Made by a program: the position numbers and the translations under genes
Shown here: positions 2,918-4,672 of the stretch, in pieces
Layout of the letters: each line of letters starts with the position of its first letter
Position numbering within the stretch: position 1 is the first letter of the stretch
The notes under the pieces: model-generated
Database searches by the model: none
Told to the model about the DNA's origin: nothing
What the model saw: only the letters and a program-made list of their open reading frames with translations
NCBI GenBank assembly: GCA_016235245.1
Contig: JACRLO010000039.1
Coordinates: 1 to 42,884 of the forward strand
Length of the DNA stretch: 42,884 bases
DNA from: Nitrospirota bacterium
Lineage (GTDB): Bacteria; Nitrospirota; Thermodesulfovibrionia; Thermodesulfovibrionales; UBA6898
Direction of reading: 5' to 3'

Positions 2918-3859
2918 TTGACTATGCAGAGATATAATTCATTCGGTGCGCATATGCGCCGGACCTTCGGCACAACAGTGTACAAAGTCAATGTTGATGC
3001 TGGATTTACCTGCCCAAACAGGGATGGCACCCTCGGCTTTTCGGGCTGCATTTATTGCAACAACGACAGTTTCCGGCCAAGTTCCTGCAAGCCTTCGGTA
3101 TCCATACCCGAGCAGGTCAGAAACGGCATCAGCCATACAAAAAAACGTTTTCAGGCGGCCAAGTTCCTTGTCTATTTTCAGGCCTATACCAACACATATG
3201 CCCCTGTTGAGCAACTGGAAAAGCTTTATACTGAGGCCCTCTCTTCTGGACCTGATGTAATAGGTCTTGCGATCGGCACACGGCCGGACGCGGTTGATCC
3301 GGAGAAAATCAGGATGCTTGAGTCTATTGCATCAAAATACTTCGTGCTCATCGAGTACGGTCTGCAGTCAATGCATGACAAAAGCCTCGAGTTCATACAG
3401 CGGGGCCATGATTATCATTCCTTTCTCCGGGCAATAGAAATGACTAAAAACAGGGGTATCCATATTGGAGCCCATCTTATCGCAGGATTCCCGACAGAGA
3501 CCCGTCAGGAGACGCTCGCCATGGCTGAGGAGATGTCATCGCTGCCGATCGAATTTCTAAAAATCCATCAACTTCAGATCATTAAGGATACACCTTTGGC
3601 CAAAATGTACAAAGACAATCCATTCCCGGTGTTTGGGTATCAGGAATATCTCGATTTTGTCGTTGATTTTGTGGAGAGAACCGCGCCGCATATTGTGTTG
3701 CAGCGGCTTTTTGCCACCGCACCTGATGATATTCTCATTGCGCCTGCATGGGGGAAAAACAGACACCAGATTCTCAGTGACATTGAAAAAAACCTTGCGG
3801 TAAGGGATACCGCTCAGGGGAAAAAGTTCAGTCTTCAATCGGTCGCTGCAAAGAGCTAA
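2918..3859 (+). CDS. TIGR01212-family radical SAM protein (YhcC-like)
   Basis: Radical SAM enzyme of the YhcC/TIGR01212 family; the biochemical role of the family is not firmly established. The cluster motif is the family's own long form: C32, then 11 residues, C44-x-x-C47 in TCPNRDGTLGFSGCIYC. Further family marks are YFQAYTNTYAP, IGTRPDAV, the segment LIEYGLQSMHDKSL, HLIAGFPTETRQE and HQLQIIKDTPLAKMY. Length (313 aa) is normal. The chosen TTG start has AAAGG seven bases upstream; an ATG two codons later is the alternative. It overlaps the convergent nitroreductase gene by four bases, so the two 3' ends share their stops. Confidence 0.92.
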   Translation: MTMQRYNSFGAHMRRTFGTTVYKVNVDAGFTCPNRDGTLGFSGCIYCNNDSFRPSSCKPSVSIPEQVRNGISHTKKRFQAAKFLVYFQAYTNTYAPVEQLEKLYTEALSSGPDVIGLAIGTRPDAVDPEKIRMLESIASKYFVLIEYGLQSMHDKSLEFIQRGHDYHSFLRAIEMTKNRGIHIGAHLIAGFPTETRQETLAMAEEMSSLPIEFLKIHQLQIIKDTPLAKMYKDNPFPVFGYQEYLDFVVDFVERTAPHIVLQRLFATAPDDILIAPAWGKNRHQILSDIEKNLAVRDTAQGKKFSLQSVAAKS

Positions 3860-4359
3860 TCGCGGTATACGACCAGACCTTTCAATTCTTTTCTTTTTGT
3901 TGCCCTGGGCATTTCATCAGGATATCCCATAGCAATGACAGCCATAAGCTCCAGTTCCTCAGGCAGGCCAAGGATCTTCTTGATTTGTTCATTGCTCCTG
4001 ATAATCTCACCGAGCCAGACTGCGCCTAATCCAAGGGCATGAATCTCAAGCAGCATGTTCTGCAGGCAGGCCCCGATAGACTGTATGTCCTTCTCCCGAT
4101 GATAGCTCTTTGCCGTATCAAGGAATACCGGTATCAGCGCCTGCGCTGCAAGAACGATTTTTGCGTAATGAGTCAGCGAGGAGATCCTGGTAATCGTTGC
4201 CTTATCAGTCACAACCGCAAAGCGCCAGGCCTGGTTGTTCAGCCCTGATGGAGCCCATCTTCCGGCTTCAAGGACTTTTTCTATCAGCTCTTCAGGAATC
4301 CGATCAGACTTGAATTTTCTGACGCTGCGTCGGCTCTTTATAAGGTCAAGCATGTCCAA
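3856..4359 (-). CDS. Nitroreductase family FMN oxidoreductase
   Basis: Small FMN-dependent nitroreductase-fold oxidoreductase, cytoplasmic and probably dimeric. It shows the phosphate-binding start IKSRRSVRKFKSDRIPEE, the WAPSGLNNQAWRFAVV segment that contacts FMN, and the C-terminal GLGAVWLGEI and MAVIAMGYPDE motifs. At 167 aa it is of the short type. The substrate is unknown; members range from nitroaromatic reductases to flavin-processing enzymes. The start used is TTG with GGAG five bases upstream; an ATG two codons on (4353) is nearly as good. It diverges from the NifU-domain gene across only 52 bases, so the two may share a control region. Confidence 0.85.
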   Translation of the reverse strand: MDMLDLIKSRRSVRKFKSDRIPEELIEKVLEAGRWAPSGLNNQAWRFAVVTDKATITRISSLTHYAKIVLAAQALIPVFLDTAKSYHREKDIQSIGACLQNMLLEIHALGLGAVWLGEIIRSNEQIKKILGLPEELELMAVIAMGYPDEMPRATKRKELKGLVVYRD

Positions 4360-4411
4360 AGTGACTCCAATCTGTTACAATTATTAGCTCATTTTCAGTA
4401 AAAGGAGACTT

Positions 4412-4672
4412 ATGGAAAATATAGAGAAAGATGTACAGAAAATCAAGCAGATCATAGAAGAGCTGAAGCCCCAATATACGACTCTTGGCGGCGATATCGA
4501 ATTTGTCGATATAAAAGATCAGGATGTCAGGATACGGCCTACCGGATATTGCTGGCGTTGACACATGACCCGCATGGACCTGGTCAGGGCCATAGGTGAA
4601 CGGATCAAGGCTGAGATACCGTGGGTAAAGATGGTTGTTGTCGCACCTCAGGATGTGGCCTCTCAAAAATAA
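4412..4672 (+). CDS. NifU C-terminal-domain protein, probable selenoprotein (TGA = Sec at codon 50)
   Basis: An 86-residue protein homologous to the NifU C-terminal (Nfu) domain, which carries or transfers Fe-S clusters through a CxxC motif. Reading starts at an ATG with AAGGAGA in front. Residues 1-49 give the Nfu pattern: LGGDIEFVDIKDQDVRIRPTGYC. Codon 50 is TGA (4559-4561), exactly where the second Cys of CxxC should be (C47-W-R-U50). After it the same frame continues with HMTRMDLVRAIGERIKAEIP and WVKMVVVAP, the normal end of the domain, to a TAA at 4670. A hairpin at 4574-4593 with a GGTC loop fits a bacterial SECIS element. Conservation of frame on both sides argues against a decayed gene. 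Selenium genes (selA, selB, selC, selD) are not in this window. If not Sec, it would be a sequencing error or truncated pseudogene. Confidence 0.8.
4559..4593 (+). promoter_or_regulatory. Candidate bacterial SECIS: UGA plus downstream hairpin
   Basis: Directly after the in-frame TGA (followed by C, as in E. coli fdhF) a stem forms: ATGG 4574-4577 with CCAT 4590-4593, an A/G mismatch, then CCT 4579-4581 with AGG 4586-4588, closing a GGTC tetraloop (4582-4585). The loop G lies 21-22 bases after the TGA, inside the 16-37 range used for bacterial SECIS searches, and the loop has the GU expected for SelB. A competing pairing, TGACC 4566-4570 with GGTCA 4582-4586, exists. Confidence 0.6.

Follow-up and report, generated by a model that had tools for sequence, protein, structure and literature searches.

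Comparative sequence evidence for a NifU-domain selenoprotein in Nitrospirota

Results

The window analysed here is a stretch of 42,884 nucleotides (contig JACRLO010000039.1) from a bacterium of the phylum Nitrospirota, and its forward strand carries a small NifU/Nfu-domain gene whose reading frame passes through an internal TGA (Table 1). Translation with TGA as U gave MENIEK...RPTGYCWRUHMTRMDLV...ASQK*, with U as residue 50, which confirmed the claim of a preliminary description of this DNA that the TGA occupies the second Cys of the CxxC motif (C-W-R-U). The same description had called the frame NifU-C-like on both sides of the TGA, and the Pfam model PF01106 (NifU) indeed matched the entire frame with 56.1 bits (gathering cut-off 27, E = 4e-15); the NCBIfam NifU/NfuA models also matched the protein, with scores under their cut-offs. 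An antisense open frame of 106 aa over the gene (4346-4666, minus strand) was taken as chance.

Table 1. Positions in the window of the candidate selenoprotein gene, its elements and its upstream neighbours
Feature	Position	Strand	Remarks
TIGR01212 tRNA-modification radical SAM protein MnmL/YtqA	2927..3859	+	Next to the Sec gene in 12 genomes, which belong to two families
Nitroreductase-family protein	3856..4359	-	Between MnmL/YtqA and the Sec gene in part of the window's own family
Shine-Dalgarno GGAG	4404..4407	+	4 nt upstream of ATG; from sequence, rated good
Stand-alone NifU/Nfu-domain selenoprotein CDS (very probable), 86 aa	4412..4672	+	Codon 50 (TGA) decoded as Sec; ends at TAA
Codon for Cys47 (first position of C-x-x-U)	4550..4552	+	Invariant in 22 orthologs
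TGA codon for Sec50 (second position of C-x-x-U)	4559..4561	+	TGA in 22/22 orthologs
Bacterial SECIS hairpin (putative)	4574..4593	+	Covariation; synonymous shuffles (22/22); absent in Cys paralogs

Among 60 related genomes, 11 orthologs were detected, and in every one the TGA occupies the equivalent codon; among 396 genomes of the phylum there were 20 carriers at E ≤ 1e-14, including members of a family outside the window's class. In total, 21 further orthologs were found in Nitrospirota, belonging to three GTDB families inside and outside the window's class (contig names place the relatives in Nitrospirota, one being labelled Thermodesulfovibrionales), with identities to the window protein reaching down to 59% within its own order and lower outside the class. 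The window gene included, all 22 orthologs carried TGA at this codon, and because 22 separate assemblies agree, sequencing error, named beforehand as a possible refutation in the form of a miscalled TGC or TGT, was excluded. The 22 sequences shared the motif G-[YF]-C-x-[RS]-U-H-x-T-R with an invariant Sec; the CxxC cluster motif of canonical Nfu proteins was absent, CxxU standing in its place in every one, and the family was therefore classed as Nfu-like selenoproteins, not canonical Nfu. In one further genome (G007) that carries the gene, an assembly run of N covers the Sec site (L014, around 1490-1505), and extra TGA counts in two genomes (G011 and G034) were rejected as Sec codons, being ordinary terminators.

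The preliminary description had pointed to homologs with Cys or Sec at position 50 as support, and both were found: Sec in 22/22 orthologs, and Cys in the canonical Nfu paralogs of the same and related genomes, which read GAC-x-x-C-P-M-S. At E ≤ 1e-14, no ortholog with Cys at codon 50 was observed in the 396 genomes of the phylum, so the Cys/Sec pair depends on distant paralogs. No relative was found in the viral contigs or plasmids searched. A phylogenetic tree separated the Sec proteins from the Cys proteins of the same phylum by a single branch with support of 100/100, and because columns were few and branches long, only this Sec/Cys split was taken from it. Purifying selection was found on both sides of the TGA, and over the 26 codons that follow it dN/dS between ortholog pairs was at most 0.48 and mostly below 0.3, which would not be expected to be maintained past a stop or in a decayed gene. 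In parts of the window's own family dS was lower after than before the TGA, the pattern expected where an RNA element is superimposed on coding sequence.

The preliminary description had also proposed a bacterial SECIS hairpin at 4574-4593. A hairpin with a GGTC loop (4582-4585) is present there, although its own fold was unexceptional when considered alone (42-nt RNA, -10.2 kcal/mol, z = 0.11 against dinucleotide shuffles), and it became highly significant across the 22 orthologs. A free-energy test of the whole 42 nt gave a mean z of just -1.2 across orthologs and was replaced by a local 21-nt test, a scan along the gene and a Cys-paralog control. Locally, the hairpin was more stable than synonymous, protein-keeping shuffles in 22/22 genes (z below -1 in each), and in the scan the mean z was -1.44, -2.28 and -1.81 at codons +4 to +6 and near zero elsewhere. 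The signal was absent at the same site in 30 Cys-type Nfu genes (z = 0.07 at +5), and no other single line of evidence is as strong as this control. In a gap-free alignment of the corresponding regions of the 22 genes, 87.9% of the cells of a 6-bp helix (columns 18-23 against 29-34) held standard pairs, and two helix positions showed compensatory changes (G-C/A-U/U-A and C-G/A-U/G-C). The helix covariation of 0.296 compared with a shuffled mean of 0.160, was reached by none of 500 shuffles and fell much lower when the helix was slid by one column. The loop-closing pair (columns 24 and 28) was G-C in some members of the window's own family and C-G in two sequences of family f9. In the window, this conserved helix joins 4576-4581 to 4587-4592 and encloses a 5-nt loop that begins with GGUC 20 nt after the TGA; in the orthologs the hairpin starts 5 codons past the TGA and its loop is likewise of the GGUC type. 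An 8-bp register of the window's own genus (4574-4593, 4-nt loop) lacked covariation across the family and was rejected as the family helix.

The window hairpin fits the published bSECIS model (loop G, spacing of 16-37 nt, MFE of -7.5 or below), and the weak hairpin in G034 (MFE -6.1) falls short of it. In the SECIS of E. coli fdhF, a small hairpin lies just past the UGA with GGUC in its loop; the window element is alike in these respects but differs in stem sequence and spacing. The C that follows the TGA, to which the preliminary description had drawn attention as a resemblance to fdhF, is present but is not independent evidence, because the next codon encodes an invariant His (CAC or CAT, 22/22) that dictates it.

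The preliminary description had further suggested looking in the genome for selA, selB, selC and selD. Two of these were present: a tRNA-Sec (selC; 70.9 bits, anticodon TCA) and selD, whose product is itself a selenoprotein with an in-frame TGA in the motif CAGU (contig 35, L038:1501-2427). selA and selB were not found in the sequence of this genome (G000), in which positions 8001-40000 of contig 25 (C25) read only N. The flanks of the N stretch were 85-87% identical to, and collinear with, contig 20 of a congener (G002), where the 31-kb interval between the flanks holds selB and an adjoining 472-aa ORF of selA length; selB was found in 7/7 congeners. The absence, which would have counted against Sec decoding, is probably only apparent, because the 32-kb N stretch is collinear with the congener's selAB region, and by this collinearity the two genes very probably lie within the N stretch. 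In the congener, a gap of 432 nt separates selB from the selA-length ORF (L042:9300-9732), and part of it matches contig 4 of the window's genome with 65% identity. Across the phylum, SelB was detected in 18/20 carriers of the Sec gene and in 159/376 non-carriers (Fisher P = 2e-5, uncorrected for relatedness). One carrier (G097, L089) had the Sec gene and a tRNA-Sec without a SelB match, probably owing to an assembly gap, and another (G131) had no tRNA-Sec above the cut-off.

A predicted model of the protein (pLDDT 77.5) had Nfu topology, its best PDB matches were all Nfu domains (2z51, 2m5o and 1veh first), and it placed Cys47 where a loop ends and Sec50 in the opening turn of helix two. The gene neighbourhood in the three families provided no clear functional clue. 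The MnmL/YtqA gene is sometimes directly upstream of the Sec gene on the same strand, and the nitroreductase-family neighbour is probably unrelated to it. In the third family the Sec gene mostly lies behind an ispG-proS pair; neighbours are presumably ispG, proS and rseP, names that we assigned from their sequences.

Discussion

The preliminary description had judged this gene a probable selenoprotein, and the invariant TGA in 22/22 orthologs, the selection past it, the SECIS-like hairpin, the tRNA-Sec and SelD strengthen that judgement: on comparative sequence evidence, the window gene is very probably a Sec-decoding NifU-domain gene. Sequence comparison shows UGA codon 50 to be a sense codon maintained by selection, with a SECIS-type hairpin behind it; following established bacterial Sec biology, SelB and Sec-tRNA-Sec would bind this hairpin so that Sec is inserted. 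The product would be an 86-residue Nfu domain of alpha-beta-beta-alpha-beta order, carrying Cys47-x-x-Sec50-His51 where an ordinary Nfu has its Fe-S cluster site.

The protein resembles the Nfu/NifU C-terminal Fe-S carriers (PF01106; 2z51, 2m5o, 1veh) in domain, fold, GGD motif and the position of the two-residue motif, but these have CxxC and C-P-M-S whereas the window family has CxxU and U-H-x-T-R and forms its own branch (100/100). Selenoproteins of the GrdA, HdrA and SelW-like types share the UGA-decoded C-x-x-Sec pair but have other folds without a NifU domain. Within Fe-S biology, the nearest parallel is the HesB-like selenoprotein (TIGR01911), which is likewise related to a family of Fe-S carriers (A-type) but has an unrelated fold and the motif UxGP (PMC13188914). 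Whether the family had already been catalogued was left in doubt by the preliminary description, and that doubt has narrowed: a NifU selenoprotein is absent from a review of May 2026 that covers 119 families of prokaryotic selenoproteins (PMC13188914), from a 2022 review and from the deep-Sep paper, NCBIfam 20 (June 2026) holds no matching NifU selenoprotein, and our literature search for one found none. The NifU-type selenoprotein, sampled here within Nitrospirota, is thus apparently an uncatalogued selenium-dependent family.

The role that we consider most likely, if tentatively, is that the CxxU pair acts as a selenol/thiol redox site, which would serve in a redox step tied to the handling of Fe-S, sulfur or selenium; the invariant His51 and Arg54 and the near-invariant Arg49 would favour the selenolate. 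Two properties of ordinary Nfu proteins bear on the possible role of CxxU: CxxC pairs from two subunits hold a cluster at the homodimer interface (PMC7939391), and an empty CxxC can form a disulfide that is reduced by thioredoxin (PMC6210436). The first of these supports a reading that is almost as probable, in which Sec50 is mainly a cluster ligand, a [4Fe-4S] or [2Fe-2S] cluster is bound between two subunits by their Cys47/Sec50 pairs, and the protein is a carrier with an altered potential or transfer rate. CxxU coincides exactly with the CxxC position in the Nfu fold, and both Cys47 and Sec50 are positionally invariant; against it, the canonical C-P-M-S-x-x-T-[LM]-[KR] is replaced by U-H-x-T-R-x-[DAG]-L-V. 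Conceivable at slightly lower confidence still is a protein devoted to Fe-S trafficking that natively binds its cluster through Sec (Cys2Sec2 at the homodimer interface), with Cys never occupying the site in the members found. His51, Arg49, Arg54 and the loss of C-P-M-S lead us to lean slightly towards the redox pair over the Sec-ligated carrier. It is improbable that CxxU-H serves as a binding site for metals or metalloids (Hg, As, Se) or hands selenium on, with neither an Fe-S nor a redox role: many newly listed selenoproteins are metal-associated (PMC13188914), but none of the conserved neighbours was recognised as a metal-resistance or selenium gene.

The readings that dispense with Sec fare worst. 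That the TGA is a true stop, leaving a decayed gene or a functional 49-residue peptide, is hardly credible, for although TGA is an ordinary terminator in this genome (12/34 long ORFs of the window), here it is invariant in 22 species with purifying selection beyond it, and no TAA, TAG or frameshift occurs at the site in any of the 22 orthologs. Insertion of another amino acid, whether through a changed code (Trp or Gly) or through simple readthrough, is equally far-fetched given the widespread TGA stops and the tRNA-Sec of the genome, the Cys at position 50 of the Nfu paralogs and the SECIS-type hairpin behind the TGA.

Gene callers that treat TGA purely as a stop would truncate such genes at codon 49. 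Selenoproteins are usually thiol oxidoreductases. This family very probably carries Sec in the motif with which a universal Fe-S carrier domain binds its cluster, and Sec is retained there in 22/22 species found; the small protein would be suited to testing directly whether Sec can ligate a biological Fe-S cluster or whether cluster delivery is under redox control.
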